Positions 1,146-22,426 of a stretch of DNA of 40,297 bases are shown here, one piece after another (the stretch's first letter is position 1; each line of letters starts with the position of its first letter). The position numbers and the translations under genes were made by a program. The notes under the pieces are model-generated. The model was not told the origin of the DNA. It saw only the letters and a list, made by a program, of their open reading frames with translations, and did not search any database. The DNA comes from Candidatus Bathyarchaeota archaeon (GTDB taxonomy: Archaea; Thermoproteota; Bathyarchaeia; TCS64), in NCBI GenBank assembly GCA_018396865.1, contig JAGTRB010000005.1:64001-104297 (forward strand), read 5' to 3'.

Positions 1146-1176
1146 AGGAGAGAGAACCCATTCCCTGAGGAGGTAT

Positions 1177-1491: not shown

Positions 1492-2483
1492 GGTTCGGAA
1501 TAGAGTTTGTCCCACTAGAACCTTACTGGAGGACCGTATACTACTCTATCCAAGCGGAAAGGCTAGGATACGATAATATCTGGATCACAGACCACTTCAA
1601 TAACAGGAATGTCTACGTGCTTTTGAGCACATTGGCCAACTACACTGAAAGAATAACGCTGGGCCCAGGGGTAACAAACCCATACCTCATACACCCCGTT
1701 ATAACAGCCCAGAGCATAGCATCCCTAAGCGAGATAGCCCCAGGAAGGATCGCCTTAGGAATAGGTGCGGGTGACAAGACGACATTGGAGATGGTGGGAG
1801 TGGAGCAGAAGTCGCCCCTAACCGCGGTTAGGGAGGCCGTTGAGCTCATCAGAAGGCAACTTGCAAGGGGGAAGGAAGGCTATAGCGGAAGCATCTTCAA
1901 AACCTCCCCTAGCGCCAGGTTTAACTTTAGGGTTCAAGGAGGCATACCTATCTACATAGGGGCCCAGGGGCCAAGGATGTTACAATTAGCGGGCTCAGTA
2001 GGAGACGGGGTCCTTATAAATGCATGCCACCCTGAGGACGTCGCCTCGGCCATCAAGAGCATAAGGGAGGGGGCTGAGATGTCCGGGAGGAAGCTTGAGG
2101 AGCTAGACATCGCCGCCTATACATCCTTCTCCATAGCTGATGACGAGGGAAAGGCATACAAAGCTGCAATACCAGTAGTAGCCTACATAGTTGCAGGGAG
2201 CCCCCCTCCAATTCTCTCAAGGCATGGCATAGCCCACGAGGCAGCTGAGAGAATAAGGTCAAAACTAGCAGAGAGGAAGTGGGAAGAAGCCTTCAGGGAG
2301 GTTACCCATGAGATGATAGAATCCTTCTCCATCGCGGGGACACCCGAAAGATGTATAGGGAAGATCCAAGAACTCTTGGAGAAAGGAATCACCCAGTTCG
2401 TTGTCGGGTCTCCACTCGGCCCCAACATGAAGGAGGCCATCAATCTCTTCGGAAGAAGGATAATCCCTCACTTTAGGGAATAA
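1488..2483 (+). CDS. mer: F420-dependent methylenetetrahydromethanopterin reductase (Mer)
   Basis: Mer reduces N5,N10-methylene-tetrahydromethanopterin to the methyl form with reduced F420. It is a TIM-barrel member of the bacterial-luciferase-like superfamily. The 331-residue length is normal for the family. Recognisable segments are the start MRFGIEFVPLEPYWRTVYYS, AERLGYDNIWITDHFNNRN, the GPGVTNPYLIHP strand and the conserved GIGAGDKTTLE. Its ATG overlaps the stop of the preceding gene by four bases. It supplies methyl groups to the corrinoid protein of the CODH/ACS complex encoded next, so the methyl and carbonyl branches are adjacent. The closest alternative would be another F420-dependent luciferase-like oxidoreductase, but the N-terminal motifs favour Mer. 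Confidence 0.92.
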   Translation: MRFGIEFVPLEPYWRTVYYSIQAERLGYDNIWITDHFNNRNVYVLLSTLANYTERITLGPGVTNPYLIHPVITAQSIASLSEIAPGRIALGIGAGDKTTLEMVGVEQKSPLTAVREAVELIRRQLARGKEGYSGSIFKTSPSARFNFRVQGGIPIYIGAQGPRMLQLAGSVGDGVLINACHPEDVASAIKSIREGAEMSGRKLEELDIAAYTSFSIADDEGKAYKAAIPVVAYIVAGSPPPILSRHGIAHEAAERIRSKLAERKWEEAFREVTHEMIESFSIAGTPERCIGKIQELLEKGITQFVVGSPLGPNMKEAINLFGRRIIPHFRE

Positions 2484-2651
2484 ACTGAAGACAACAAATC
2501 CCGGTGAGGCTCTCTTCATAAAGGTTCAACTAATTATGCTTATACACATTGGATTTTCATGATATGAATAAAGTTTTCGCAGTTGATCTTTTATTATATA
2601 TTCCGAAATGACAAAGATAATGATTGGGGCATATAATTATTTTAGAAAAGG

Positions 2652-2658
2652 TTTATAA
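2652..2658 (+). promoter_or_regulatory. probable TATA box of the cdh operon
   Basis: The heptamer TTTATAA lies in an AT-rich gap of about 200 bases after mer and is preceded by an A-rich stretch that could serve as the TFB element. Transcription would start near 2680, leaving a leader of about 20 bases before the favoured cdhA start at 2702. It is the best promoter candidate for the whole cdhABCDE run because the following gaps are very short. Confidence 0.5.
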
Positions 2659-2701
2659 TTCTAGAAGTTTCAGCTGATTGGAGTCCGAAGGGAGTGGAAA
2701 C

Positions 2702-5044
2702 TTGCCCAAGAAAGACCTAAGCCTTAGGATAGGGGAGTTCTCATCTTCTCTTGGAGTATTCAAGGATTTAGAGATACAGGTCGGCAGGATCCTCGAGGAG
2801 TGGGAAGAGGCAACCGGCCCCACACCATTCCCCGAGATAGCAACCCTCCGAGAATGGGACATGAAGCTCCTCAGCAGATACAAGCCTTTCTACATGCCTT
2901 TCTGCGACCTTTGCTGCCTCTGCACTTTCGGTAAATGCGACTTGACGGGGGACAAGAGGGGGGCATGCGGCATCACCATGGCGGGGCAACAGTCGAGGAT
3001 CGTTCTACTAGCCTGTTGCATAGGTGCAGCCGCTCATGCTCAGCACGCGAGGATGATGCTCAACCATCTTATTGAGGAGTATGGTAGGGATGCCCCCCTG
3101 AACGTCGCCCTAAACACGAATGTCGAGGCCCCCCATATACGACTGGTTTGCGGGATAAGGCCCAAGACCCTTCATGACTTGGATGATGCTCTTACATATG
3201 TGGAGGAACAGATAGTGCAATTGCTAGCTTCAACTCATACAGGCCAGGAGGGGAGCAACCTAGACTATGAGTCTAAGGTCTTCCATGCTGGGATGCTGGA
3301 CCACGTGGCCCTAGAGATAGCCGATATATCTCAGATCTCCGTCTTGGGCTTTCCTAAGGGGGATCCTGAGGCCCCATTAGCGGATCTCGGATTCGGCGTC
3401 GTGGACCCCTCAAAACCGATGATACTTGTGATAGGCCATAACGTGCTACCTAGTGTTGACATAGTGGACTATCTCATGGACCATGGCCTCTTCGGTGAGG
3501 TAGAGGTTGGAGGCCTCTGCTGCACAGCTCACGACCTCTCCAGATATGATAAGAGGGGAAAGATAATAGGCCCCATCTCATGGGAAATGCGGTTTATTCG
3601 CTCGGGCATCCCCGACGTCGTGGTGGTAGATAAGCAATGCATCAGAACGGATGTGCTTTTAGAAGCTCAGAAGATAGGGGCTCCATTGATAGCGACCAGC
3701 GAGATGAGCTGCCATGGTCTTCCAGACCGGACGCAGGATGACCCGGAGAGGATCGTGGAGGACCTGGTTAAGGCGAGGATACCCGGCGCACTTATCCTAG
3801 ATCCCAGAAAGGTGGGGGAGGTAGCCGTAAAGACGGCGATGAAGATGGCACCCAAGAGAGCTAATTTCAAAGCCTTAATGCCCGAGGAGTTGGGGGGTCT
3901 AGCTCAGAGGTGCAGGAGATGTGGAGAGTGTGTGCGAGCCTGTCCAAACAATCTTCCGATATTAGATGCGATGAACGCAGCTAGGATTGGAGATCCAACT
4001 TTCCTATCCAACCTTTACGACGCCTGCGTGGGCTGCGGGCGCTGCGAGAGCGCCTGCCCAGAGGATCTCCCCATAATGAGCATGATCAACGCCTCCTCCT
4101 CAAGGAGGATTGCTGAGGAGAGGTTCAAGATAAGGGTGGGGAGAGGTGCCATCCAAGATGTGGAGATCAGGGAGGTTGGCAGGGCGATCGTCTTTGGGGA
4201 GATCCCAGGCGTATTGGCCTTAGTGGGATGCGCCAACTATCCTGAGGGAGGGGCCGACGTCGCCAGGATTGCGGAGGAGTTCCTGAAAAGGCGCTTTATA
4301 GTCGTCGCCTCAGGTTGTGCAGCGATGGCGATCGCAATGACAAAGGATGAGGAAGGGTTGAGCCTCTACGAGAAGTATCCAGGGATCTTCGATGCAGGAG
4401 GTCTCGTCAATGTTGGTAGCTGTGTCTCGAACGCCCACATAACGGGGGCAGCCATTAAGATAGCCAACATCTTCGCAAAACGTCCATTAAGGGCCAACTA
4501 CGAGGAGATAGCCGACTATATCTACAACAGGGTTGGGGCTGTTGGGGTTGCCTGGGGAGCTATGTCCCAGAAGGCTGCTAGCATAGCCTCAGGCTGCTGG
4601 AGGCTCGGGATCCCTGTAATAGTTGGCCCCCATGGATCCAAGTATAGGAGGATGCTCCTGGGAAGGAAGGAGAGGATGGAGGACTGGATGGTCTACGACG
4701 CCAGGACCGGAGAAAGGGTTTACGTCGGCCCGGCGCCTGAGCACCTCTTCTACGCAGCCGAGACCGTTGAGGAGGCGATCGTGATGATAGCAAAGCTCAC
4801 CATGCGCCCAAACGATACAAGCAAGGGTAGAGCGGTTAAGCTAAGCCACTACATAGACCTCTACCAGCGATATTACGGCGAGCTGCCCCCAGATATACAT
4901 TTATTTGTCAGGACTAACGCCGACATACCCTTCACCATGAGGGATCAGGTAATGGCCAACTTGGAGAAAGCGGGATGGGTGGAGGGGAAGATAGCATCAC
5001 CAGATCCCACCCTACTGGAGAGGCTCGTCAGGAGGCGCCCTTGA
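2702..5044 (+). CDS. cdhA: CODH/ACS complex alpha subunit (Ni-Fe-S carbon monoxide dehydrogenase)
   Basis: CdhA interconverts CO2 and CO at a Ni-Fe-S C-cluster and passes CO to acetyl-CoA synthase. I prefer the TTG at 2702, preceded by an AGGGAG-like ribosome site (780 residues); a TTG at 2678 would add eight residues but has no such site. The N-terminal cysteine cluster (C68, C71, C72, C74, C79) matches the B/D-cluster region. Two ferredoxin-type 4Fe-4S motifs follow at C404-C414 and C442-C452, a feature of archaeal CdhA that bacterial CODH lacks. Further cysteine segments, GGLCCTAHD, VASGCAAMA and VGSCVSNAH, correspond to the C-cluster region. It overlaps cdhB by one base. Confidence 0.96.
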   Translation: MPKKDLSLRIGEFSSSLGVFKDLEIQVGRILEEWEEATGPTPFPEIATLREWDMKLLSRYKPFYMPFCDLCCLCTFGKCDLTGDKRGACGITMAGQQSRIVLLACCIGAAAHAQHARMMLNHLIEEYGRDAPLNVALNTNVEAPHIRLVCGIRPKTLHDLDDALTYVEEQIVQLLASTHTGQEGSNLDYESKVFHAGMLDHVALEIADISQISVLGFPKGDPEAPLADLGFGVVDPSKPMILVIGHNVLPSVDIVDYLMDHGLFGEVEVGGLCCTAHDLSRYDKRGKIIGPISWEMRFIRSGIPDVVVVDKQCIRTDVLLEAQKIGAPLIATSEMSCHGLPDRTQDDPERIVEDLVKARIPGALILDPRKVGEVAVKTAMKMAPKRANFKALMPEELGGLAQRCRRCGECVRACPNNLPILDAMNAARIGDPTFLSNLYDACVGCGRCESACPEDLPIMSMINASSSRRIAEERFKIRVGRGAIQDVEIREVGRAIVFGEIPGVLALVGCANYPEGGADVARIAEEFLKRRFIVVASGCAAMAIAMTKDEEGLSLYEKYPGIFDAGGLVNVGSCVSNAHITGAAIKIANIFAKRPLRANYEEIADYIYNRVGAVGVAWGAMSQKAASIASGCWRLGIPVIVGPHGSKYRRMLLGRKERMEDWMVYDARTGERVYVGPAPEHLFYAAETVEEAIVMIAKLTMRPNDTSKGRAVKLSHYIDLYQRYYGELPPDIHLFVRTNADIPFTMRDQVMANLEKAGWVEGKIASPDPTLLERLVRRRP

Positions 5045-5592
5045 TGTCGGCCAAACTAACCACAGGCCAGACGGCGGAGATCCCAGGCCCAAAGAAGGCC
5101 TTTCTCGTTCCTAAGCCAGAGGTCGCCGCCTCGATGATAAACAGGGCGAGAAGGCCTCTCCTCGTCGTGGGCTCAGATGCCACGAAGGTTAAAACAAAGG
5201 ATGGAGACCTAGTTGATACCGCCATTAGGATGTCTAGATCTAAGAATATAACCGTGGCTGCTACAGGACACCTAGCAGGTGAGTTCAGGAGGAGGGGAGC
5301 GGTGGGAGTTCACGGGATCTCCATAATGGAGCTCGGAGACCGGCTCAGAGATTCTGGCTGGAGCGGCCTGGATGTAGGAGGACCCTACGACCTTGTCGTT
5401 TTTGTAGGCCTACCCTACTACCTCGAGTGGCTCATCCTCTCTGGCTTGAAGAACTCCGCCCCATCTCTTAGAACCCTTTCACTTGACAACACCTACCACC
5501 CTAACGCCCATTGGTCCCTCGGATACTCACCACATGAGGAGTGGATAGAGATTTTAGATAGAATAGTAGCTAATCTCGAAGAGGTGGGCTAG
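5044..5592 (+). CDS. cdhB: CODH/ACS complex epsilon subunit
   Basis: CdhB is the small subunit that binds CdhA in the archaeal CODH component; a role in electron transfer has been proposed for it. The protein has 182 residues, close to the usual size of about 170. The ATG at 5044 shares its A with the cdhA stop (TGATG), which fixes the start and implies coupled translation. Recognisable parts are the RRPLLVVGSD strand-turn, a Rossmann-like layout and the GPYDLVVFVGLPYYLEW strand. Its stop codon is directly followed by the cdhC ATG. The assignment rests on these motifs and on the gene order cdhA-cdhB-cdhC. Confidence 0.93.
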   Translation: MSAKLTTGQTAEIPGPKKAFLVPKPEVAASMINRARRPLLVVGSDATKVKTKDGDLVDTAIRMSRSKNITVAATGHLAGEFRRRGAVGVHGISIMELGDRLRDSGWSGLDVGGPYDLVVFVGLPYYLEWLILSGLKNSAPSLRTLSLDNTYHPNAHWSLGYSPHEEWIEILDRIVANLEEVG

Positions 5593-6984
5593 ATGTCGAT
5601 GTTCGAGGACATCCCCGTGGGTGTGGGAATAATCTACGAGGGGGAGAGGATCAGGGGGAGGGATATGCAGGTTGAGCTTGGAGGGCCCAGAGAACCCTAC
5701 AAATTCGAGCTAGTCCAAGCTAGAACTCTAGATGAGGTCGAGGATGGGAAGATAACCATAATAGGTCCCGACATCCCAGGTCTGAAGCAGGGGACCAACA
5801 ACCCCTTCGGCCTCCTAGTGGAGGTGGCTGGGAAGGAGGTGGAGAAGGACCTCGAAGGGGTTATAGAGAGGAGGATCCATGAGTATCTAAACTTCATCGA
5901 GGGGTTCATGCACCTAAACCAGAGATATGACATCCAGCTTAGGTTGAGCAAGAAGTCCTATGAGAGGGGCCTCAACACCTTCAATCTAATCGGGAAGGTC
6001 CTTTACCGCCTATTCAAGAGCGAGATGCCCTTCATTGAGAAGATACAGTTCACCTTCATCACAGACCCATCAGCTGTTAAGGAGTGGTTTGAGAAGGCCA
6101 TGAGGGTTTACGAGGAGAGGGATGCAAGGGCGAGGGGTATGAGCGACGACGAGGTGGAGGTCTTCTACGGGTGCAGCCTGTGCCAGTCCTTCGCCCCGAC
6201 CCACCTCTGCGTCATCACACCCCAGAGGTACGCAAACTGCGGAGCTATAAGCTGGTTCGATGGGAGGGCCACTGCGAAGGTCGACCCTAAAGGACCTGTC
6301 TTCGAGATACCAAAGGGCAACCTGATAGACCCAGTAAAAGGTGAATATGAAGGGGTTAACAGGACTATCCAGGTCAAATCACTAGGGGAGATCCAGAGGG
6401 TCCAGCTCTACACGGCCTTTGGATATCCTCACACGAGCTGTGGGTGCTTTGAGGGGGTGGCCTTCTACATCCCTGAGGTAGACGGGTTCGGCCTGGTGCA
6501 TAGGGGCTTCAAGGGCCAGACGGTCAACGGCCTGGACTTCGTCACCCTCTCAGATCTCACAGCTGGTGGGAGGCAGGTCGACGGCTTCCACGGCGTCTCA
6601 ATAGAGTATATGAGAAGCAAGAAGTTCCTCCAGGCGGACGGAGGCTGGGGTAGGATCGTCTGGATGCCATCCGAGATTAAGGAGAGGATTAAGGACTTCA
6701 TCCCTCCAGATATGGTTGACAAGATAGCGACGGAGAAGGAGGTCACCAACCTAGAAGAGCTGAGAGGCTTCTTGAAGGAGAGAGGCCACCCCATAGTCGA
6801 AAGATGGATCGAGGCCAAGCCCGTGGAAGCTGAGGCGCCTAAGGAGGTGGCAGCCCCAACACTAGAGCTTCCACCAGGGATGGTGCCAATTCAGGGAATA
6901 CCCGCTGGGATGGGCCTCAAGATAATACTGAAGAACGCCAAGATCAGGGCGGAGAGGATGATCATAAGGGTGGAGAGGAAGTAA
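5593..6984 (+). CDS. cdhC: CODH/ACS complex beta subunit (acetyl-CoA synthase)
   Basis: CdhC joins CO, a corrinoid-bound methyl group and CoA at the nickel A-cluster to give acetyl-CoA. The 463-residue protein lacks the extra N-terminal domain of bacterial AcsB, as is normal for archaea. The cysteine cluster includes C194, C197, C206 and C216, followed by C283 and C285 in the Cys-Gly-Cys motif; together these contain the A-cluster ligands. The C-terminal region after about residue 405 is rich in Pro, Ala and Glu and is a flexible linker before a short basic tail. The gene starts immediately after the cdhB stop; a second ATG two codons later cannot be excluded as the start. Confidence 0.96.
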   Translation: MSMFEDIPVGVGIIYEGERIRGRDMQVELGGPREPYKFELVQARTLDEVEDGKITIIGPDIPGLKQGTNNPFGLLVEVAGKEVEKDLEGVIERRIHEYLNFIEGFMHLNQRYDIQLRLSKKSYERGLNTFNLIGKVLYRLFKSEMPFIEKIQFTFITDPSAVKEWFEKAMRVYEERDARARGMSDDEVEVFYGCSLCQSFAPTHLCVITPQRYANCGAISWFDGRATAKVDPKGPVFEIPKGNLIDPVKGEYEGVNRTIQVKSLGEIQRVQLYTAFGYPHTSCGCFEGVAFYIPEVDGFGLVHRGFKGQTVNGLDFVTLSDLTAGGRQVDGFHGVSIEYMRSKKFLQADGGWGRIVWMPSEIKERIKDFIPPDMVDKIATEKEVTNLEELRGFLKERGHPIVERWIEAKPVEAEAPKEVAAPTLELPPGMVPIQGIPAGMGLKIILKNAKIRAERMIIRVERK

Positions 6985-6988
6985 CCCC

Positions 6989-8200
6989 ATGTCTGGCGCT
7001 AAGAAGAAGGACCAGCCCCTCCCCCTAGGCTTGGATATACTGGAGGCTCTCGCCAAGCTACAGGAGGTTGAGCTGGAGGATGTTGAGATGGACTTCGAGG
7101 AGCTGGAGCTGAGCCTAAGCCCAGGCCCGTTTATGGTTCCAGCTCCTAGAGCACAGGTAGAGCTGCCTGGTGTAAAGGCCAAGCCCACATCCCTCCTCGA
7201 GGCCGAGTTCCAACTACCAGTTGAGGAGTATCCAGGCATGGTCGTGGAGGTGGAGCTCGGAGCAACAAGGGCTGAGGGGGGAAGCAGGGGCAGAACGTTG
7301 GTAATAGGGGGGGAGAGGGCTCCAGCCTACTACTCCTTCCTTCAGGAGACCCCCCACAGGCCAGTTATAGCCATAGACGTATTCGACTATCCAGAGGTTA
7401 GACTTCCAAGGGCTGTCAAGATGCATGTCGCCGAGGTCCTCCATGACCCCGCAGAGTGGGCTAGGCTCTCAGTCGAGAGGTTTGGAGCTGAGATGGTGAA
7501 TGTCCACCTCCTCAGCATAGACCCCCTGATAAAGAATACCCCTCCAAGAGAAGCCGTTAACACGGTTGAGGAGGTACTACAAGCTGTAGATGTTCCGATA
7601 GCCGTAGGAGGCTGCGGTGATCCGAAAAAGGACCTTGAGGTCTTCAGGGCAGTCGCCGAGGCCACTAAGGGGGAGCGAATCCTATTCGGCTCAGTAACCT
7701 TGGATATGGATATTGAGGCCACAGCTAAGGTCGTGGAGGAGCACGGACACAGAGTCATAGCCTTTACATCGATGGATGTGAACAAGGCCAGGGAGCTGAA
7801 CAGGAAGCTCTATGAGTATATGCCCAAGGAGCACATAGTCATGGACACGACGACGGCGGCGTTGGGCTACGGCCTCGACTACGCCTTCACAGTGATGGAG
7901 AGGGCCCGCCTCGCCGCCCTGAAGGGAGACCCAGAGCTCAACCACCCCATCTCCTCAGGGGCTACCAACGCCTGGGCTGCGAGGGAGGCATGGATGCAGC
8001 TCGGCCCTCAATGGGCTCCCAGGGAGCTGAGGGGACCCCTATGGGAGACGATAACCGCCGAGACCCTCCTCCTAGCAGGGGTAGACTACTTCATGATGAT
8101 GCACCCGGCCTCTGTGAAGGCGATAAAGATGATGATCGACAACCTGATGAAGAAGAGCACGCTCGAGAGGCCCATAGATTGGGTTGGACTTAGGATATAG
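6989..8200 (+). CDS. cdhD: CODH/ACS complex delta subunit (corrinoid Fe-S protein, small subunit)
   Basis: CdhD pairs with CdhE to form the corrinoid iron-sulfur protein that carries the methyl group from tetrahydromethanopterin to acetyl-CoA synthase. The 403 residues begin with an acidic, low-complexity stretch of about 80 residues, followed by a TIM barrel. Recognisable segments are RPVIAIDVFDYPE, VPIAVGGCGDPKKDLEV, HIVMDTTTAALGYGLDY and the Ser-Gly-Ala-Thr-Asn stretch near residue 320. It lies four bases after cdhC and 12 bases before cdhE. Length and motif order agree with archaeal CdhD. Confidence 0.95.
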   Translation: MSGAKKKDQPLPLGLDILEALAKLQEVELEDVEMDFEELELSLSPGPFMVPAPRAQVELPGVKAKPTSLLEAEFQLPVEEYPGMVVEVELGATRAEGGSRGRTLVIGGERAPAYYSFLQETPHRPVIAIDVFDYPEVRLPRAVKMHVAEVLHDPAEWARLSVERFGAEMVNVHLLSIDPLIKNTPPREAVNTVEEVLQAVDVPIAVGGCGDPKKDLEVFRAVAEATKGERILFGSVTLDMDIEATAKVVEEHGHRVIAFTSMDVNKARELNRKLYEYMPKEHIVMDTTTAALGYGLDYAFTVMERARLAALKGDPELNHPISSGATNAWAAREAWMQLGPQWAPRELRGPLWETITAETLLLAGVDYFMMMHPASVKAIKMMIDNLMKKSTLERPIDWVGLRI

Positions 8201-8212
8201 GGGCGATGAAGG

Positions 8213-9625
8213 ATGCCCGCCAAGGAGTTAAGCCCCATAGATGTATACAAGCTCCTCCCAGGTACAAACTGTAGAGAGTGTGGAGAGACCAACTGTATGG
8301 CCTTCGCTGCGAGGCTGGTGAACAGGGAGGTTCCCCTTGAGAAGTGTCCTCCCCTTATGGATCCTAGGAATAAGCCATTATATGACAAGTTGTGGGATCT
8401 CCTAAGACCACCGATAAGGGCTGTGGAGGTGGGGGTAGGGGAGGGGAAGGTGACCCTGGGAGGGGAATACGTCGTCTACCGCCACGAGCTCACCTACTTC
8501 CACCCAACCACCATAGCCATAGATCTGAACGACGAGATGACCGAGGAGGAGATGGAGGCCAGGATAAAGGCTGTGAAGGAGTTCGAGTACGAGTACATAG
8601 GTATGAAGCTGAAGCTGGACATGCTAGCCATAAGATCAACATCCAACGATCCAAGTAGATTCGAGGCGGCTGTAAGGAAGACCTGGGAGGCGTCCAAGAT
8701 GCCCCTGATCCTGTGCTCCCTAGACCCGACGGTTATGGAGCAGGGACTGGCAGCGGTCCCGGACAAGAGGCCCCTCATCTACGCGGCGACCAAGGACAAC
8801 TGGAGGGAGATGGCCGAATTGGCCATCATGTACGGCTGCCCCCTCGTGGCCTCGTCCCCATTCGACCTCAAGGGATTGAAATCCCTAACGAAGACCCTTC
8901 TAGAGTATGGGGTAAAGGATATAGTCCTAGACCCTGGAACCCTCGGATCCGAGGGTCTCGGAGAGACCCTGAACAACTTCACGGCTCTTAGGATTGCAGC
9001 GATCGACAGGGGTGACGACCTACTCGGCTTCCCCCTCCTGGGAACCCCGATAACGGTCTGGAGTGAGGAGGCTGAGGATCCCATCATAAACGAGTGGAAT
9101 GAGGCCATGCTCGCATCAGCCCTGATAGTCCGTTTCGCCGACGCCCTGATAATGCACAGCATCAGCGGTTGGGTTCTCCTCCCCTTGGTAATCCTAAGGC
9201 AGAACATTTACACAGACCCCAGGAAGCCTGTCTCGGTTGAGCCCGGGATCAGAAGTTTCGGCTCGCCCAATGAGCTATCACCCGTCCTCCTGACATCGAA
9301 CTTCGCCCTGACATATTACACGGTTGCCTCAGACATAGAGTCAGCTAAGGTAGACTGCCACTTGGTAGTGGTGGACACGGAGGGCCTATCCGTCGAGAGC
9401 GCTATCGCCGGAAGAAAAATGACGGCGGAGACAGTTGCAGAAGCACTGAAGAACTTCAGGGTGGGGGACCTAGTAAAGCATAGGAAGCTCATCCTTCCCG
9501 GAAGGGCGGCCAGGATAAGCGGGGAGGTGGAGGAACTCTCTGGATGGAGGGCGCTGGTTGGTCCCCTAGACTCCTCAGGTATCCCAAAGTTCCTTAGTGA
9601 GAACTGGAAGCCGGAGATGGATTAA
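8213..9625 (+). CDS. cdhE: CODH/ACS complex gamma subunit (corrinoid Fe-S protein, large subunit)
   Basis: CdhE binds the corrinoid and a low-potential 4Fe-4S cluster that reactivates Co(II). The cluster motif is at the N-terminus: C20, C23, C28 and C45, in the CxxCxxxxCx16C pattern typical of this family. A TIM-barrel domain follows, and the C-terminal part after about residue 330 is the B12-binding domain. The 470-residue length is normal. The ATG at 8213 is 12 bases after cdhD. No methyltransferase gene (mtr or acsE type) lies next to it, so transfer from methyl-tetrahydromethanopterin must depend on CdhDE or on genes elsewhere. Confidence 0.96.
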   Translation: MPAKELSPIDVYKLLPGTNCRECGETNCMAFAARLVNREVPLEKCPPLMDPRNKPLYDKLWDLLRPPIRAVEVGVGEGKVTLGGEYVVYRHELTYFHPTTIAIDLNDEMTEEEMEARIKAVKEFEYEYIGMKLKLDMLAIRSTSNDPSRFEAAVRKTWEASKMPLILCSLDPTVMEQGLAAVPDKRPLIYAATKDNWREMAELAIMYGCPLVASSPFDLKGLKSLTKTLLEYGVKDIVLDPGTLGSEGLGETLNNFTALRIAAIDRGDDLLGFPLLGTPITVWSEEAEDPIINEWNEAMLASALIVRFADALIMHSISGWVLLPLVILRQNIYTDPRKPVSVEPGIRSFGSPNELSPVLLTSNFALTYYTVASDIESAKVDCHLVVVDTEGLSVESAIAGRKMTAETVAEALKNFRVGDLVKHRKLILPGRAARISGEVEELSGWRALVGPLDSSGIPKFLSENWKPEMD

Positions 9626-10635: not shown

Positions 10636-10645
10636 CTTATAAATA
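10636..10645 (+). promoter_or_regulatory. probable TATA box of the DUF6754 membrane operon
   Basis: CTTATAAATA stands in a 159-base AT-rich gap after cooC and 25-35 bases before the ATG at 10671. It is a good archaeal box A and suggests that the membrane genes are transcribed separately from the cdh genes. The resulting leader would be very short, about 5-10 bases. Confidence 0.5.
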
Positions 10646-10670
10646 TAAATTAGCTTGGGGTAAGGAAAAA

Positions 10671-11459
10671 ATGGCTGCCCTACAGTCTGGCAGGGTCTCT
10701 GGACTCCTAACCCTCATCTACCTGATAGGTATGGTGATATACTTCGCCCTTAGGTCTAGAAAGGGGAGGGTTCCCGGACTTAGGAGGATACCGGGACTTG
10801 ATGCTATCGACGAGGCTATAGGCAGGGCTGCCGAGATGGGGAGGCCCGTCTTCATCTCCCACGGAATTGGCAACATGACGGATGCCACCTATGGACCCCA
10901 GACGATAGCTGGCTTGGGGGTATTAAGCTATGTAGCTGAGAAGTGCGCAGAACTCGGAACAAGGCTCTATGTCCCAGTAAGACAGCTCACGATCTGGCCT
11001 ATCGCGGTGGAGTTGTGCGAGACTGGCTATAAGAAAGCTGGGCGACCAGAGGACTTCAATCCAACCGATCAGGTGAGGTTCCTCTCCTCAGACCAGTTCG
11101 GGTTCTCCTCCAACTATATGGGCTGGATGTGGAGGGAGAGGGCTGCTGCCAATATCATGATAGGGGCCTACTGGGCCGAGTCCCTTCAGCTCGCGGAGAC
11201 TGGTGCTAGGATAGGAACTGTGCAGGTCGGAGGGACCGCAAACACCCATCAGATCCCCTTCTTTGTCGCCGCCTGCGACTATGCCCTTATAGGGGAGGAG
11301 ATATTCTGCGCCGGTGCCTATCTATCCAAGGATGCAGAGATGATAGGTAGCCTCGCGGGTCAGGATATGGGGAAGCTTCTCAGCATTGTACTGATCGTTC
11401 TGGGGGTCCTACTAGTTACCGCCGGATCGGATATTCTAACCAAGATACTGAGCTGGTGA
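10671..11459 (+). CDS. DUF6754-like membrane protein with central alpha/beta domain
   Basis: This 262-residue protein has one hydrophobic helix at about 11-28 and another at about 237-257, with a soluble domain between them. The domain contains RPVFISHGIGNMTDATYGPQ, VRFLSSDQFGF, GGTANTHQIPFFVAACDYAL and GSLAGQDMGKLL, a pattern I recall from the uncharacterised DUF6754 family of prokaryotic membrane proteins. The basic stretch RSRKGRVPGLRR directly after the first helix suggests a cytoplasmic domain by the positive-inside rule. It is the first of four tightly spaced genes. Function is unknown; there is no catalytic signature I can name. Confidence 0.85.
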   Translation: MAALQSGRVSGLLTLIYLIGMVIYFALRSRKGRVPGLRRIPGLDAIDEAIGRAAEMGRPVFISHGIGNMTDATYGPQTIAGLGVLSYVAEKCAELGTRLYVPVRQLTIWPIAVELCETGYKKAGRPEDFNPTDQVRFLSSDQFGFSSNYMGWMWRERAAANIMIGAYWAESLQLAETGARIGTVQVGGTANTHQIPFFVAACDYALIGEEIFCAGAYLSKDAEMIGSLAGQDMGKLLSIVLIVLGVLLVTAGSDILTKILSW

Positions 11460-11464
11460 TCGTC

Positions 11465-12112
11465 ATGGCCTGGTACAGAAGGGTCGAGATCCCGATAATT
11501 TTAACGATCATCTTCTGCATCTTTCAGGTGGTTCCATACTTCTTCGTGGTCCCAGCTTGGGAGTCGGCCGCAAAGGACTTCGTCGACTGGGACGCGGTGA
11601 TGGAGACCTTCGCCCTATTCATAGGATTCACCACCCTCCTCATGCTCCATGGGCGGATAGTAGCCCAGAGGAGGAGGGGGTGGTACTGGAGCGCCTGGGT
11701 CCTCATAACAATGATAGGGTACACCATAGTGGGGATACCCATTCCATCAATCGGCCTAGGGAAGGGAACTCCCCTGTTCGAGGCGATCAGGCTCTATGTG
11801 CTTACACCCCTGAGCGGGGCGATGTATGCCTCCCTCGGATTCTGGATTGCCTCGGCCGCCTATAGGGCCTTCAGGGCTAGAACCATTGAGGCCGGGGTGC
11901 TCCTCCTATCAGGCACCCTAGTTATGCTGGCTAACGCGCCCATAGGCACTGCGATCTGGCCCACCTTCACACCCATCAGAAAATGGATATTCGACGTCCC
12001 AAACATGGCCACCATGAGGGCTATAACAATAGGAGCAGCCCTTGGAGCTATCGCTCTAGGGGCAAGAACCCTGATGGGGAGGGAGAGAGGGTACTTGAGA
12101 GGTGGTGAGTAG
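11465..12112 (+). CDS. six-TM integral membrane protein of the DUF6754 module
   Basis: This unrecognised protein of 215 residues has six predicted membrane helices, with loops such as HGRIVAQRRRGWYW and RAFRARTIE that suggest cytoplasmic basic turns. I prefer the ATG at 11465, five bases after the preceding stop, with GGTGAT just upstream; a GTG at 11456 overlapping that stop would add three residues. It has no cysteine or histidine pattern that would suggest haem or Fe-S binding. The TM core contains conserved-looking Pro/Gly kinks (IVGIPIPSIGLGKGTP). It ends immediately before the third gene, so co-translation and a complex with its neighbours are likely. Confidence 0.8.
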   Translation: MAWYRRVEIPIILTIIFCIFQVVPYFFVVPAWESAAKDFVDWDAVMETFALFIGFTTLLMLHGRIVAQRRRGWYWSAWVLITMIGYTIVGIPIPSIGLGKGTPLFEAIRLYVLTPLSGAMYASLGFWIASAAYRAFRARTIEAGVLLLSGTLVMLANAPIGTAIWPTFTPIRKWIFDVPNMATMRAITIGAALGAIALGARTLMGRERGYLRGGE

Positions 12113-12979
12113 ATGACCGAGATGGAAGAGAGGAGGGGGAAGGGCTTCTGGGAGAGGCTCCAAGAGGTAGACTCAAGGATAATCTATCTCCTCCTTTGGA
12201 TAGTCATCCTATGGCCCCTCATAACGCCCTTAGGCCTACCGATATCCATATCCACGGGAACAAGGGAATACTTCCAGGTAATAGAAGACCTCAAGCCTGG
12301 GAGTAGGGTGATCCTAAGCTATGATCTGAGCTTCGCAGGTCTTCCTGAGCTTGGGCCGATGACCATTGCAACGCTTCACCACCTCCTAAAGAAGGATATT
12401 AAAGTCTACATCTGCGCCTTCTGGGATTCGGGTGCAGACATAGCAGCAGACAACATCAGGGCCTTAGAACCTGAGAAGAATTATGGAAAGGTTTACGGCA
12501 AGGACTACATCCACATGGGTTATAACCCGATGAGGGAGGTGGGGATGGCCCAGTTCGCCTCAGATGTCTATAAGGCCTTCCCCGTAGACTACATCTACAA
12601 GAGGCCTCTAGAGACCTATGAGATGATGAAGGGGGTCCAATCGGCGAAGGACTTCGACCTACTCATAAGCGTTCAGAGCGGGACACCTGGAAACCCGGAG
12701 TGGGTGAGGCAGTGGATAACCCCATACGGCATAAAGTATATAATTGGAATCCTCGGCGTCTCGGTCCCAGAGGTGGCTCCATACTACAACGCTGGCCAGG
12801 TTAAGGCCTTCCTCGCTGGGCTTAGGAGCGCCGCGGAGTACGAACTGCTCGCTGGGAGGAGGGGCGCAGCCCTAGCCCAGCAGGACCCCCTCTCCACGAC
12901 GCACATACTGGTCATCCTCTTCGTCGTCATCGGGAATATAGGCTACTTCTTCACTAGGGCTAGGCCAAGGAGGAGTTAG
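12113..12979 (+). CDS. membrane-anchored protein with probable extracytoplasmic domain, DUF6754 module
   Basis: This 288-residue protein has a charged N-terminus, one helix near residues 26-44, a soluble domain of about 215 residues and a C-terminal helix near 265-282 followed by a basic tail (RARPRRS). Basic residues at both ends place the termini inside and the domain outside the membrane. The domain alternates strands and helices (GSRVILSYDLSFAGLPELGP, KKDIKVYICAFWDSGADIAA, DFDLLISVQSGTPGNPEW) and looks like a Rossmann-type fold. No enzymatic motif was recognised. It has the reverse topology of the first gene product, which suggests paired domains on opposite faces of the membrane. It starts right after the preceding stop. 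Confidence 0.8.
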   Translation: MTEMEERRGKGFWERLQEVDSRIIYLLLWIVILWPLITPLGLPISISTGTREYFQVIEDLKPGSRVILSYDLSFAGLPELGPMTIATLHHLLKKDIKVYICAFWDSGADIAADNIRALEPEKNYGKVYGKDYIHMGYNPMREVGMAQFASDVYKAFPVDYIYKRPLETYEMMKGVQSAKDFDLLISVQSGTPGNPEWVRQWITPYGIKYIIGILGVSVPEVAPYYNAGQVKAFLAGLRSAAEYELLAGRRGAALAQQDPLSTTHILVILFVVIGNIGYFFTRARPRRS

Positions 12980-12989
12980 GTGATAAGGG

Positions 12990-13712
12990 ATGTTGACCGA
13001 TTGGCTGGCTGGTGTGATCACGACATTAGGCCCCTGGTTCACCGCTTTCTTCCTCCTCTGCATATTCAGCTTCACATATAAGGAGAACCCTTGGTTCAGG
13101 TTCGCTGAGGCCACATACCTCGGTGTCGCAACCGCATACACGATAGGGTTCAACCTCGACTGGCTTCTCAGCCAGTGGAAAAGCGTCTGGTCTCTAACCT
13201 CAACCAAGATCATGCTTTTCTCATTAGCCCTACTTGTTGGAATGCTATGGTATTTTAGGTTCTCAAAGAAGTACTTCTGGCTTTACAGGATCCCGTTATC
13301 CATAGCTGTGGGCACATACATAGGGTTATCCTTGAGGACCATGGTCTTCGCCCAGTTCCTCCACCAGATTAGGGCCACGTTCATACCCCTCGTGGCGAAG
13401 ACCCCCATGGACACCCTCAATAACATCCTCATCGTGATAATGGTCTTAACAGTCCTCCTATACTTCTACTTTACCCTAGAGCATAGAGGACCATTAAGGT
13501 ACACTTCTAGAATAGCCCGCTACACCATGATGGCTGGATTCGGCGCTGCCTACGGCGACACCGTAATGACTAGGATGGCCCTCCTTATAGGACAAGCCCG
13601 CAACCTCCTCAGCCATCCCCCATCCTTCGCCTCTATAGCCATAGTCATCCTCGCAACCCTCCTAGTGAGTGACTATCTCAGGATGAGGAGAGAACCCAGA
13701 GGAGCTAAATAG
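12990..13712 (+). CDS. seven-TM integral membrane protein of the DUF6754 module
   Basis: This unrecognised 240-residue protein has about seven membrane helices. TM1 (WFTAFFLLCIFSF) and TM2 (YLGVATAYTIGFNLDWLL) are followed by helices near residues 73-92, 98-125, 143-164, 178-203 and 214-232. The FAEATYLGVATAY and RTMVFAQFLHQIRATF segments contain small and polar residues inside helices, as in channels or transporters, but no transporter signature is evident. The ATG is 10 bases after the preceding stop and an AGGTGAT site lies upstream. A T-rich run at 13728-13739 after the stop could terminate the operon. Confidence 0.78.
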   Translation: MLTDWLAGVITTLGPWFTAFFLLCIFSFTYKENPWFRFAEATYLGVATAYTIGFNLDWLLSQWKSVWSLTSTKIMLFSLALLVGMLWYFRFSKKYFWLYRIPLSIAVGTYIGLSLRTMVFAQFLHQIRATFIPLVAKTPMDTLNNILIVIMVLTVLLYFYFTLEHRGPLRYTSRIARYTMMAGFGAAYGDTVMTRMALLIGQARNLLSHPPSFASIAIVILATLLVSDYLRMRREPRGAK

Positions 13713-13747: not shown

Positions 13748-14137
13748 ATGAGGTATGATGATTTGGGTTCTAGAGAGATCGATTTCACCGATCTGGTCAT
13801 TGGCTCATTCATAGCAGCATTATTCGTCTGGGCTTGGTTGCAGTTATCTAATAATTTGAGGTTCTATGAGGTCCCTGATCATCTCCAGTTCATCTTATCC
13901 CTCATGCAGTACGGCTTCTTCTTTTTAGGAGGGGTCACCTCTTCTATAATCATCTCTTTTAAGACTGGATGTCGTGAGGTTAAAGAATTTTTGAAGATAG
14001 GCCTGGGGGGATGGATTATATCCACAACCCTCTTCATACCTTGGTCGGAAAATCCTACAATAGGAGCTGTTATAATGACTCTGATAATGTTTCTAACAGG
14101 AAGCTATCTAGGGGTTAAAACATTATCTAAAAACTGA
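13748..14137 (+). CDS. small four-TM membrane protein
   Basis: This is an unrecognised protein of 129 residues with four hydrophobic helices, at about 15-35, 46-68, 82-97 and 103-123. The only charged patches are the N-terminus and the FKTGCREVKEFLK loop, which is probably cytoplasmic. It starts 35 bases after the DUF6754-type module, but its codon use is more AT-rich and a T-rich run separates it, so it may not belong to that module. No ribosome site is obvious and the message could be nearly leaderless. It is probably real because of the coherent TM pattern. Confidence 0.6.
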   Translation: MRYDDLGSREIDFTDLVIGSFIAALFVWAWLQLSNNLRFYEVPDHLQFILSLMQYGFFFLGGVTSSIIISFKTGCREVKEFLKIGLGGWIISTTLFIPWSENPTIGAVIMTLIMFLTGSYLGVKTLSKN

Positions 14138-14265: not shown

Positions 14266-15108
14266 TTGAAATTTAAGGCTATAAAGGTGAGGACGGCTTA
14301 CTGGAGGCCTGGAACAGACTACATCATGGAGATTGTTAGGGTGGTTAGGGGCCTGGCTCAAGAGGGGGATATAGTCACGGTCTCTGAGAAGGCGATCTCA
14401 ACGGCCTCAGGCCTCCTCTTAGACGAGTCGAAGGTAAAACCAGGATGGCTCGCAAGGTTCCTATCTGTTTTCTGGATGAGGAGGATCTGGGGAGGACCCC
14501 TAGGAAGGCTCACGAAGCTCAGGGAGAAGACCATAACGAGGCTGAGAGGGTATCCAATCAGGGAGGGGGCGGCTCATAAGCACCTAGCGATTCGATACGT
14601 AGGCCTCTTACAGGCCCTCAGGCACTACTCCGAGGGGGGGATCGATGCTAGCAACCTCCCCTACAGCCTTGTGAGCCTCCCCCTCAAGAGGCCATCTAGA
14701 GAGGCCGAGAAGATAAGGAACGCTCTTGTTTCCTCAACGGGCTTGAGCCTCTCCGTGATGATAGTGGATGGAGATACGACCTACTCCTGGAGAAACCTCC
14801 ACCTAGCCCCGAGGAGAGTGGAGATACCAGGCCTCATCCATGTGGGAGGCTTCCTCACCTTCTTAATAGGGAGGACGCTAGGGTTCAAGGCCAGAGCCAC
14901 ACCCCTCGCCATCTCCGGTGAAGACCTGAACCCCGACCTAGCATTGGAACTAGCCGAGGCGGCTCACAGGATCAGAGGACATGGGGCTGGGAGAACCGTT
15001 TGGGATATGTCCAAGAGGTTCGGCGTCGGCCCATCCCAAGTGACATGGGAGATGATGGATAGGGCCAACCATTCACCAATAGTCATCCTAAGAAAAACTT
15101 GTAAATAA
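14266..15108 (+). CDS. CofE-like coenzyme F420-0:L-glutamate ligase family protein
   Basis: The family adds glutamate to F420-0 with GTP. This 280-residue protein starts with TTG (MKFKAIKVRTAYWRPGTDY) and shares the family's early GDIVTVSEKAIST segment. It also has SEGGIDASNLPYSLVSLPLK, matching the Gly-Ile-Asp-x-Ser-Asn core of CofE, and SVMIVDGDTTYSW in place of the usual Asp-Thr-(F/W)-Gly-Arg stretch. The C-terminal AHRIRGHGAGRTVWDM is also family-like. It differs from canonical CofE by a basic insertion near residues 60-100, so it may be a paralogue with another amide-forming role. The F420-using mer upstream is consistent with F420 metabolism in the host. Confidence 0.75.
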   Translation: MKFKAIKVRTAYWRPGTDYIMEIVRVVRGLAQEGDIVTVSEKAISTASGLLLDESKVKPGWLARFLSVFWMRRIWGGPLGRLTKLREKTITRLRGYPIREGAAHKHLAIRYVGLLQALRHYSEGGIDASNLPYSLVSLPLKRPSREAEKIRNALVSSTGLSLSVMIVDGDTTYSWRNLHLAPRRVEIPGLIHVGGFLTFLIGRTLGFKARATPLAISGEDLNPDLALELAEAAHRIRGHGAGRTVWDMSKRFGVGPSQVTWEMMDRANHSPIVILRKTCK

Positions 15109-18526: not shown

Positions 18527-20632
18527 ATGGCCAGATACAGCTTAGGAATAGATGTTGGGGGGACCTTCACCGATGTTGTCGCATTGAACGAGGAGAAAGG
18601 TGAAATTTTGAATATAAAATTATCTTCAACCCCTGAGGATCCGGCGAAAGCTGTGGTAAAGGCACTCAATGAGTTTCTAATAAAGGAAGGAGATGGGGAG
18701 ATCTCGAGGGTTATCCATGCCACAACAATAGCCACGAATGCCCTACTTGGACAGCTAGGCCTGGAGTTGCCTAGAGCGGCTCTTATAGCCACGAGGGGTT
18801 TCAGAGATGTTTTAGAGATAGGTAGGCAGCGCAGGCATAGACTTTATGATCTTTTCATCCGGAGGCCCCGCTGCCTCATACCTCGAAATCTACGCTTTGA
18901 AGTTGATGAGCGTATCGGGCCTAGAGGTGAGATCATCAAGCCCTTAAACGAGGATCAGGTGAAAGGATTGGCGGAACAGCTAAAAAAAGAAAACATCGAA
19001 TCTGTTGCTGTTGCTTTACTCTTTTCCTATATAAATCAGAAACATGAACGTAGAATAGAAAAAATTTTAAAGAAGTTATTACCTCGAATTTATATTTGCA
19101 TCTCTTCAGAGATAGCACCTGAATATAGAGAGTATGAAAGAACAAGTACTGCGGTTGTTAATGCCATTTTGATGCCCATAGTATCCAGCTATCTGAATAA
19201 GTTGCAGAGAAGGATGAGGAGTTTAGGGGTTGATGCACCATTATGTGTGATGCAGTCAGATGGGGGGATAGCATTGAAGGATGTTGTTTCGAAGAGGCCT
19301 ATAAGCATGGTCGAGTCTGGCCCGGCTGCTGGAGTTATAGCCTCCGCCTTCTATGGGAGGCTTCTCGGGCTTAAGAGGATACTGAGCTTCGATATGGGCG
19401 GAACGACGGCCAAAGCTGGAGCAGTAATGGATGCAACGCCCGAGATCGTGAGCGAGTACGAGGTCGCTGGAGAGGTTCACAGCGGAAGGATCGTGAAGGG
19501 CAGCGGTTACCCCGTGAGATACCCCTTCATCGACCTGGCTGAATGTAGCGCTGGTGGAGGGACAATAGCTTGGGTTGATGAGGGCGGAGCCTTAAAGGTT
19601 GGGCCAATTAGTGCAGGGGCGATCCCCGGACCAGCATGCTACGGCAAGGGAGGAGCGCACCCCACTGTGACGGATGCAAACGTTGTACTGGGAAGGCTAA
19701 ACCCTCATTATATATTGGGAGGGGAGATGAAAATATACCCAGAACTCTCTGAAAAAGCCATATTGAATGAGATATGTTCAAAAATTCAATTAGAATTAAC
19801 TGAAGCTGCGAGTGGAATCATAAAAATCACCAACTCAGCTATGTCGAAAATTTTAAGGATCGTCTCAGTTGAGCGAGGGCATGACCCAAGGGATTTCGTT
19901 CTAATGTGTTTCGGTGGAGCGGGACCCATGCACGGCTGTGCCCTGGCAGAGGAGCTAAACATCAAGAAGATAATTGTCCCACAAAATCCCGGTCTCTTCT
20001 CCGCTTATGGATTGTTGATGACTGATTTTAAGACCACCCTTATCAGGGCAGTAATGAAGCCAATGGATGAAATAAACGTATATAAAATTGAGGATGTTTT
20101 TCAAAAAATGGAGCTTAAATGTGCTAAATTATTGGAAAAACAGAATATATCTAAAGATGATATGCATTTTATACGTGAAATGGATTTGAGGTACCTTGGG
20201 CAAAGCTACGAATTAACGGTTCCAGCATCAAAACCATTAACAGAAGATAACGTTAACCAAACCATCGAAAAATTCCATGAAAAACACATGAAAATTTATG
20301 GATATGCGGTGAAGAAAGAGCCAGTAGAACTAGTGAATGTGAGGATCAATGCCATTGGATTCGTTGAGAAACCTAGGCTCATAGAAAAAAATAAAAAAGA
20401 AGAAAAACCATTGAGTGATGCTTTTATTGGAAAGAGGAAAGTGTTTTTTGAAAAAATAGATGATTATATCGAAACTCCGATATATAGGCGGGAAAAACTT
20501 GCAGGAAATATCATTGAAGGTCCTGCAGTTATAGAACAATATGATGCAACGACCGTTATCTATCCAGACTGGATGGCTACCGTCGACAAATTTGAGAACC
20601 TCATTATCTATACTAAAGGGGTGATTTGTTAA
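18527..20632 (+). CDS. hyuA: hydantoinase/oxoprolinase family subunit A (HyuA-like)
   Basis: HyuA-type proteins contribute the ATP-binding half of N-methylhydantoinase, 5-oxoprolinase and related ring-opening enzymes or carboxylases. The 701-residue protein starts with GIDVGGTFTDVV (residues 7-18), an actin-fold phosphate loop, and has a second ASKHA-type motif, SFDMGGTTAKAG, near residue 287, followed by SAGGGTIAWVDEGG. The length is standard. It lies one base before hyuB. Base composition is uneven: the central part (about 19260-19700) is GC-richer than both ends. The substrate cannot be told from sequence; acetone carboxylase-like roles are possible but less likely. Confidence 0.93.
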   Translation: MARYSLGIDVGGTFTDVVALNEEKGEILNIKLSSTPEDPAKAVVKALNEFLIKEGDGEISRVIHATTIATNALLGQLGLELPRAALIATRGFRDVLEIGRQRRHRLYDLFIRRPRCLIPRNLRFEVDERIGPRGEIIKPLNEDQVKGLAEQLKKENIESVAVALLFSYINQKHERRIEKILKKLLPRIYICISSEIAPEYREYERTSTAVVNAILMPIVSSYLNKLQRRMRSLGVDAPLCVMQSDGGIALKDVVSKRPISMVESGPAAGVIASAFYGRLLGLKRILSFDMGGTTAKAGAVMDATPEIVSEYEVAGEVHSGRIVKGSGYPVRYPFIDLAECSAGGGTIAWVDEGGALKVGPISAGAIPGPACYGKGGAHPTVTDANVVLGRLNPHYILGGEMKIYPELSEKAILNEICSKIQLELTEAASGIIKITNSAMSKILRIVSVERGHDPRDFVLMCFGGAGPMHGCALAEELNIKKIIVPQNPGLFSAYGLLMTDFKTTLIRAVMKPMDEINVYKIEDVFQKMELKCAKLLEKQNISKDDMHFIREMDLRYLGQSYELTVPASKPLTEDNVNQTIEKFHEKHMKIYGYAVKKEPVELVNVRINAIGFVEKPRLIEKNKKEEKPLSDAFIGKRKVFFEKIDDYIETPIYRREKLAGNIIEGPAVIEQYDATTVIYPDWMATVDKFENLIIYTKGVIC

Positions 20633-20633
20633 G

Positions 20634-22397
20634 TTGGAAATAGATCCTATAACCGTGGAGGTTATTAAAGGAGCTCTTATATATGCGGCAGAGGAGATGG
20701 GGATTGTTCTAAGAAACTCTTCGTACTCACCAAACATAAAGGAACGTATGGATTTCTCCTGTACAATTTTCGATGGGAAAAGGCGTTTGGCTGCGCAAGC
20801 CGAGCACATTCCTGTTCATTTGGGTTCAATGCAGTTAGCAGTTCAGAAGGGGCTTGAAAGATTCAGAGGCAATCTTGAAGATGGCGATATGATAATCCTC
20901 AATGATCCATATATAAGTGGAACCCATCTTCCCGACATAACCCTGATATGTCCAATATTCTATAAAGATGAGATCGTTGCATACTCGGCGAACAAAGCCC
21001 ATCATTCGGATGTGGGAGGGAAAGCTCCTGGAAGCATGGCTGGAGACTCTTCGGAGATATATCAAGAAGGAGTTATTATTCCACCGGTGAAGTTTATTAA
21101 AAAAAATGTTGTTGACGAGGAAATTTCCAGTATTATTCTAAGTAATATCAGGACTCCGGAAATTAGGATAGGAGATTTGAGGGCTCAGATGGCTGCTAAC
21201 ATCTTGGGAAAAAGAAGAGTTTTAGAAATCATAGAAAAATATGGAGTAGAAACATTTAGGGAGGTAGTGGAAGAAATTATGAATTATTCAGAAAGGAGAA
21301 TGAAGAGGGAGATTGGTAAAATGCCAAGGGGAAGTTGGGAAGCGGAGGATTATCTTGAAAATACTGGGGTAAGCAATGATAAGGTAAAGATAAGAGTCAA
21401 GTTAACTGTAAAGAAAAGTCAGCTAATTATCGATTACACGGGAACAGACAAGCAGGTAAACGGCCCAGTTAACGCCGTTTTAGGGGTCACCCTATCAGGA
21501 GTATACTATGTTTTGAGGTGCATGACAGACCCAGACATCCCGATGAATGACGGCTGCTACAGACCTGTGAAGGTGCTAGTCCCCGAGGGCACCCTAATGA
21601 ATCCGATTCCGCCAGCCCCTGTAGCCGGGGGGAATGTGGAGACCTCCCAGAGGAATGTAGATGTATTATTGAAGGCCTTTGCCCAAGCGCTACCTGAAAG
21701 GGTTTGTGCGGCATGCCAGGGTACGATGAATAACGTCGCCGTCGGGGGAATAAACCCTGAAAATGGTAAGCCCTGGACCTTCTATGAAACCATAGCAGGA
21801 GGGTATGGAGGTAGAAAGGGATTGGATGGAATCGATGCGATTCATTCCCACATGACAAACACCATGAACACGCCCATTGAGGCAATTGAGACAACCTACC
21901 CGATACGCTTCCTCAAATATGAGCTGAGGGAGGACAGCGGAGGACCCGGGAAGTGGAGGGGAGGGGTGGGCCTCGAGAGAAGCTGGATGCTTCTCGCCCC
22001 CTCAGCCACACTCTCCATTCTAGCTGAGAGAACAGAGATACCCCCCTGGGGATTATGCAATGGGAAACCCGGGGCTACAGGCGAATTTTATATAATAAAG
22101 CAAAATGATGAGAAAATAAAGTTAAGTTCAAAATGTACAGTAAAAATCGAGAAAGGAGATATGTTTGTTGTAAGGACTCCAGGAGGGGGAGGATACGGAG
22201 ATCCATTTGAAAGAAGCCCTGAACTTGTTCACCGCGACATCTTAAATGGCCTGGTTTCACTGGAAGCCGCAAGGAAACAATATGGCGTTGTGATAGACCA
22301 GGAGAAAATGGAAATCGATTGGAAGTCCACATCACAGCTTAGATTAACAAAGGGGAACATTAATACTCAACATTCAACGTCACAAGATAAAAATTAA
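20634..22397 (+). CDS. hyuB: hydantoinase/oxoprolinase family subunit B (HyuB-like)
   Basis: HyuB is the partner subunit of HyuA and probably carries the hydrolytic site. The TTG at 20634 (MEIDPITVEVIKGALIYAAE) comes one base after the hyuA stop, with AAAGGGGTGA upstream inside hyuA. The 587 residues show ILNDPYISGTHLPDI, the conserved HHSDVGGKAPGSMAG near residue 122, GPVNAVLGVTLSGVYY and the C-terminal VRTPGGGGYGDPFERSPE. All are hallmarks of the family. As in hyuA, a GC-richer block (about 21480-22080) is flanked by AT-rich codons. Confidence 0.93.
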   Translation: MEIDPITVEVIKGALIYAAEEMGIVLRNSSYSPNIKERMDFSCTIFDGKRRLAAQAEHIPVHLGSMQLAVQKGLERFRGNLEDGDMIILNDPYISGTHLPDITLICPIFYKDEIVAYSANKAHHSDVGGKAPGSMAGDSSEIYQEGVIIPPVKFIKKNVVDEEISSIILSNIRTPEIRIGDLRAQMAANILGKRRVLEIIEKYGVETFREVVEEIMNYSERRMKREIGKMPRGSWEAEDYLENTGVSNDKVKIRVKLTVKKSQLIIDYTGTDKQVNGPVNAVLGVTLSGVYYVLRCMTDPDIPMNDGCYRPVKVLVPEGTLMNPIPPAPVAGGNVETSQRNVDVLLKAFAQALPERVCAACQGTMNNVAVGGINPENGKPWTFYETIAGGYGGRKGLDGIDAIHSHMTNTMNTPIEAIETTYPIRFLKYELREDSGGPGKWRGGVGLERSWMLLAPSATLSILAERTEIPPWGLCNGKPGATGEFYIIKQNDEKIKLSSKCTVKIEKGDMFVVRTPGGGGYGDPFERSPELVHRDILNGLVSLEAARKQYGVVIDQEKMEIDWKSTSQLRLTKGNINTQHSTSQDKN

Positions 22398-22426
22398 AAA
22401 TAAAATTTTTCCAATACAGAACTGTT

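Follow-up and report, generated by a model that had tools for sequence, protein, structure and literature searches.

Introduction

Energy-coupling factor (ECF) transporters, in which one energising module is common to several S-components (PMC7755397), offer a close comparison for a four-gene membrane module encoded in a 40,297-nucleotide stretch of DNA (contig JAGTRB010000005.1 of assembly GCA_018396865.1; the whole stretch is referred to here as the window) from a Candidatus Bathyarchaeota archaeon, the host. The module genes are designated A, B, C and D, and their partner or accessory genes M, H, S, P and E. As in ECF transporters, several membrane modules appear to use one separately encoded energiser, and copy numbers of one motor to many modules, known from gene counts, fit this arrangement in archaea and in bacteria other than the Bacillota. 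Unlike ECF transporters, A-D include no ABC ATPase, S-component, EcfT/EcfA or other ECF family in Pfam and NCBIfam scans; the putative motor is an ASKHA protein, and each module consists of four membrane proteins with soluble domains predicted on both sides of the membrane.

A second point of comparison is the GlmL/MutL family (PF13941, NF040745). The partner protein M has a full MutL domain and ASKHA motifs, but it scores 236.8 bits against the GlmL equivalog cut-off of 475 and 186.5 against the family cut-off of 204, and it is paired with H and not with a glutamate mutase. Glutamate mutase (PF06368) is present in none of 41 genomes of archaeal relatives, 28 of which have M, and together with the sub-threshold scores this rules out M as GlmL proper; as M nevertheless falls in a family named for an enzyme that these genomes lack, there is a hazard of misannotation. 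The Opp/Dpp oligopeptide ABC importers share the role proposed below and a catabolic gene context, but the recurring partners of the present system include neither a solute-binding protein nor a Walker ATPase (no ABC ATPase occurs among them, M being an ASKHA protein), and the sequences are unrelated. Comparison with Rnf-type redox complexes gave no Fe-S or flavin family in A-D, and the sole sign of an RnfC domain is an RnfC_N signal in H (E 0.01) that lies under the cut-off. A itself is a full-length member of DUF6754 (PF20539), which a preliminary description of the locus had given as uncharacterised; a literature search agrees, with no paper found on either DUF6754 or PF20539, and the operon partners of the family are new here.

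We propose that A-D form the membrane part of an undescribed primary active transport system for which M, H and S would supply the motor and amide-type amino-acid compounds the substrates, a reading to which we assign a probability of roughly 0.45. The broader proposal, that this is a new class of primary active transporter spanning Bacteria and Archaea, powered by an ASKHA (actin/Hsp70-fold) protein where known classes use ABC, P-type or rotary ATPases, with one M-H-S set common to several modules (up to 15 per genome), is possible and more tentative. Were transport to be correct, the system would represent a new way of powering it and would help to account for how the uncultured Bathyarchaeia and relatives that break down peptides and amides obtain food. 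The A-D/M-H system is new, in that no description of it was found in the literature and databases searched, and literature on MutL/GlmL with membrane or ASKHA terms yielded nothing relevant. It comprises six to eight genes kept between Archaea and many bacterial phyla, and only A has a name, that of a domain of unknown function.

An invariant module of four membrane proteins

The gene calls (made with a simple script), the family assignment of A and the predicted topologies all agree with the preliminary description of a DUF6754 protein, a protein with six transmembrane (TM) helices, a third protein with a soluble domain, and a 7-TM protein (Table 1). A matches PF20539 with an E-value of 5.6e-85 and 285 bits against a curated cut-off of 27, whereas B, C and D match no above-cut-off family in Pfam or NCBIfam. 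The genes are tightly packed: a start of B at the GTG at 11456 gives it a 4-nt overlap with A, a start at the ATG at 11465 leaves a gap of 5 nt, and the B-C and C-D spacings are 0 and 10 nt.

The host genome (Bathyarchaeia, 1.83 Mb) contains 15 copies of A, each followed by B, C and D, and the paralogues are 31-47% identical to the window A. A broad scan recovered 80 loci from archaea and from many bacterial phyla (Zixibacteria, Cloacimonadota, WOR-3/Stahlbacteria, Eisenbacteria, Planctomycetota, Poribacteria, Latescibacterota, Acidobacteria and Bacillota). All 201 distinct complete modules, bacterial and archaeal, have the order A-B-C-D, and the incomplete ones can be explained by contig ends, cut regions or divergence, again with none permuted. 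Among the 15 host paralogues the sequence distances of A-D are correlated with one another (Mantel rho 0.35-0.65, p 0.0005-0.02).

Coevolution points in the same direction. In a mean-field direct coupling analysis of the 201 paired modules (effective number of sequences 143), compared with shuffled pairings, B-D couplings reach z-scores of 12.2, 11.6, 11.1 and 10.0, and the best of any shuffle is 6.6-8.6. The pairs are, in window numbering, B W81-D T42, B W81-D F38, B W78-D P34 and B F108-D Y50, and the top three join segments of B and D on the predicted cytoplasmic side, indicating that B and D touch directly. One B-C coupling (B M49-C A227, z 9.8 versus at most 8.0 in shuffles) joins outward-facing parts. 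Taken with the invariant order, these couplings bear out the earlier suggestion that the four genes form one conserved system.

Topology was predicted from hydropathy and the positive-inside rule across the 15 paralogues. A carries a net charge of +4.8 over the 15 residues following TM1, which places its N-terminus outside and its domain inside; C has +0.9 ahead of TM1 and +3.0 beyond TM2, which places its domain outside. The soluble domains of A and C are thus predicted to lie on opposite sides of the membrane, as previously supposed, and bacterial A proteins begin with an additional leader-like stretch, some 100-150 residues long, ahead of TM1, in agreement with the outward N-terminus. Residues R38, E48, R52, E55, D203 and D232 of A are invariant, and an ENPxFRxAE motif is conserved in the first cytoplasmic loop of D. 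AlphaFold 2 models of A and C (pLDDT, a per-residue confidence score, 88 and 87) share the same order of elements, with a TM helix, alternating helices and six strands, and a long TM helix. Comparison of the two profiles by hhalign is not significant (P-value 0.004 with 15 sequences, 0.019 with the deep set), so this common order only hints at a single fold for A and C in opposite membrane orientations. A sequence search of the PDB with A, B, C, D and M gave no convincing match.

Partner proteins M, H, S and P

The four genes had been regarded as the whole unit, but they are incomplete: M, H, S and, in bacteria, P belong to the system. The preliminary description had also overlooked gene E, the 14 other module copies and the partner genes elsewhere. 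M (about 610 aa) belongs to the MutL/GlmL-like ASKHA ATPase family, matching the full MutL domain PF13941 at 398 bits against a cut-off of 27 (E-values down to about 1e-130), with the ASKHA motifs DxGSTTTK and GGATT and some 150 additional C-terminal residues relative to GlmL/MutL. It is at least 50% identical to M of other phyla, and two partner proteins are about 50% identical across domains. H (about 375-450 aa) appears to combine a barrel-sandwich and a KOW-like part; its Biotin_lipoyl and KOW-like signals are weak, and a sequence search of the PDB matched it over a KOW-like stretch and a biotinyl-like one only. The alignment of H contains no invariant modifiable lysine, and a role as biotin/lipoyl carrier was rejected; despite this lack, a gene of the biotin/lipoate ligase family is the nearest neighbour of three bacterial modules (e.g. 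L071:12981-13802). S is a small helical protein of about 100-185 aa, and P, found in bacterial operons, is a PH-like protein with a TM helix.

M and H lie in the same operon as A-D in many phyla. The order P-S-M-H-A-B-C-D occurs at loci L071, L093, L098 and L121, and P-A-B-C-D-M-H-S-M-H at L088 and L058. In G005, a single-contig archaeal genome, the order is S-M-H-A-B-C-D, and the A of this operon is 57% identical to that of the window, compared with 31-47% for the host paralogues. The host has three M genes (L029:13400-15256, L030:16348-18174 and L033:7711-9519), each followed by H and each within 4.5 kb of an A, and none of its five S genes is more than about 1.3 kb away from a module.

Because the adjacency counts for M and H use loci found via A, tests of co-occurrence provide independent support. 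Among 200 genomes of one bacterial phylum, which are not fully independent of one another, A is present in 13, H in 13 and both in 12 (Fisher 2.8e-17); among the 41 archaeal genomes the corresponding numbers are 28, 29 and 26. The archaeal relatives have 58 M genes, and an A is found no more than 8 kb away for 25 of them, where at most 2.1 would be expected. The copy numbers are unequal. The host has 15 A against three M and three H, and each of the 13 non-Bacillota bacterial genomes checked has exactly one M with one to six A, the ratio of A to M reaching 6:1 in G046 and G055 and 5:1 in G041, G047, G050 and G054; in G055 and G053 M sits far from every module.

A second type of M-H pair (M2-H2) occurs in related archaea without ABCD (L175, L176, L177, L178, L179 and L180), beside an ArsR-type regulator; H2 is shorter than H and has no KOW-like end. 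At five Bacillota loci (L184, L188, L190, L191 and L192) M-H adjoin genes that read as tsaD/rimI-like tRNA-modification genes.

Association with amide-bond hydrolases

Modules and M-H pairs lie near genes for amide-bond hydrolases beyond chance, an association that is moderate and lineage-limited. Within four gene positions of the host modules, 7 of 92 genes encode M20 peptidases and 5 of 92 belong to Amidohydro_3, and controls give at most 1 of 92 for each. Genome-wide, 10 of 39 such hydrolase genes are within 5 kb of a module (expected 3.0, p 0.0005). Other neighbours of host modules include M19, M42 and M81 peptidases, Asp/Glu racemases and carriers of the major facilitator superfamily, and Amidohydro families are the most frequent among the genes closest to bacterial modules (6 of 101). 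All six M2-H2 loci are near or next to a hydrolase gene: an amidase, a gamma-glutamyltranspeptidase, an amidohydrolase (two loci) or an M24 peptidase (two loci). In Phycisphaerae-type loci (L093, L099, L111 and L121) the system adjoins plsX and fatty-acid synthesis (fab) genes.

A proposed shared-motor uptake model and its alternatives

The hydrolase neighbours of both the modules and M2-H2 favour uptake of amide-linked amino-acid compounds, presumably powered by M. A plausible arrangement is that B (6 TM) and D (7 TM), in contact, form a membrane core whose two faces are covered by the Rossmann-like domains of A on the cytoplasmic and C on the extracytoplasmic side. M, a C-terminally extended GlmL-like ASKHA ATPase, would with H and the small helical S form a cytoplasmic motor that docks at the inner face and powers the cycle with ATP, and one motor would serve several ABCD modules with different substrates. 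In archaea and Bacillota these would most likely be amide-linked amino-acid compounds, with peptides, N-acyl or D-amino-acid derivatives, and gamma-glutamyl or cyclic amides as candidates, which the neighbouring hydrolases would open after import. The presence of 11-15 module copies in genomes of 1.4-1.8 Mb, beside differing catabolic genes, is more readily explained by carriers that each have their own substrate than by a single enzyme or assembly factor. Among signalling, transport and assembly, the options originally offered, transport fits best.

Several observations weigh against this model. No subunit has known transporter homology, and in Foldseek comparisons of A and C with solved structures in the PDB no match had E <0.001 and TM-scores were below 0.5. 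Hydrolysis of ATP by M is putative, and at the phosphate-2 motif the three host M sequences all read GLGGATTN in place of the bacterial DIGGATTD, which makes ATP use by host M uncertain; the change may point to a different ATP chemistry or to a role as a switch. Couplings for A-B, A-C and C-D are at shuffle noise and those for A-D are borderline, and the B F108-D Y50 pair fits the simple predicted topology poorly. A few genomes hold only one of the two proteins A and H, in some cases A and in others H. One motor for many modules is not a universal arrangement, since in the four Bacillota-type genomes the counts are 1-11 for A and 5-8 for M, and these M include some true GlmL. Most non-Bacillota bacteria have housekeeping genes nearest their modules, which confines the hydrolase link to archaea and Bacillota, and the host is rich in such hydrolases in any case.

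Alternatively, A-D could be a membrane enzyme or remodelling complex acting on amide compounds, with M-H as its ATP-dependent activase or reactivase. GlmL is thought to have such a function for a B12 mutase, and M belongs to the same superfamily; the hydrolase context would also suit an enzyme, and the Rossmann-like domain of A, with its invariant residues, could be catalytic. We nevertheless consider this unlikely, as the 41 relatives lack glutamate mutase even though 28 have M, M falls under the NCBIfam cut-offs for GlmL, A and C match no recognised catalytic family, and two multi-TM subunits would be unusual in a hydrolase.

A transmembrane sensing complex, in which C would bind an outside ligand, B-D would relay the signal and A with M-H would act as a switch controlling the neighbouring catabolic enzymes, seems rather unlikely. 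HAMP, kinase and receiver domains are absent from A-D in a Pfam scan, which is where the signalling option loses ground, and neither these nor cyclase domains were found in H; cyclase domains are likewise missing from A-D. The 13 TM helices of B and D together exceed the usual need of a relay, and regulators do not recur beside ABCD, although M2-H2 does adjoin one of the ArsR type. The small soluble domains on both membrane sides, the catabolic neighbours and the possible use of an ASKHA protein as a nucleotide switch are what speak for sensing.

The additional extracytoplasmic N-terminal region of bacterial A, the PH-like membrane protein of the bacterial operon and the position of the Phycisphaerae operon beside plsX and fab genes would suit a machine in which A-D and M-H move an envelope component outward, the hydrolases serving envelope peptide turnover. 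Such an export function is improbable: the fab synteny is found in one lineage only, an archaeal host is expected to lack peptidoglycan, and 15 diverged copies with differing catabolic neighbours misfit a single envelope task. A tie to carbon monoxide dehydrogenase/acetyl-CoA synthase (CODH/ACS) or redox energy conservation, suggested by the position of the module, which starts 160 bp after the final gene of a CODH/ACS cluster, can be set aside as a general function, because the position is kept only inside the genus and 14 other host copies lie elsewhere, while A occurs in many bacterial lineages beside other genes and a Pfam scan of A-D found no Fe-S, flavin or other cofactor-binding family.

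The preferred reading remains active uptake by A-D with M-H-S as motor. A listed anti-phage defence system was rejected, as A-D, M and H have no match in PADLOC.

Accessory and neighbouring genes

Table 1. Features of the module and of its surroundings in the window
Feature	Position	Strand	Description
CODH/ACS cluster	15-9625		upstream; CdhC and CdhD families
Candidate TATA-like AT-rich stretch	~10637-10650	+	ends ~20 nt ahead of A start codon; read from the sequence
Gene A	10671-11459	+	262 aa; DUF6754; 2 TM, N-out; cytoplasmic Rossmann-like alpha/beta domain (predicted)
Gene B	11456-12112	+	218 aa; 6 TM, N-in/C-in (predicted)
Gene C	12113-12979	+	288 aa; 2 TM, N-in; extracytoplasmic Rossmann-like domain (predicted)
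Gene D	12990-13712	+	240 aa; 7 TM, N-out/C-in (predicted)
Gene E	13748-14137	+	accessory small TM protein; archaeal family; iterated profile search
F420-ligase-like gene	14266-15108		downstream; PF01996, E 7e-14
Hydantoinase/oxoprolinase region	18527-26156		downstream; HyuA/HyuB pair, thiamine pyrophosphate (TPP) enzyme, MlrC-type M81 peptidase

Gene E has no Pfam family, and members of its family are also encoded next to further modules or next to S genes (L031, L048, L053, L054 and L183). The CODH/ACS cluster upstream is itself ordinary. The preliminary description had noted the adjacency of the module to it, but, being seen only inside the genus, this adjacency carries no functional signal and is a genus-level accident of position. 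Downstream, the F420-ligase-like gene scores far under the CofE cut-off and is kept in the genus, and a gene resembling it is found close to another module (L031:7257-8099). The synteny of the HyuA/HyuB region is likewise kept in the genus, and two purine deaminases are also encoded in the window downstream of the module.

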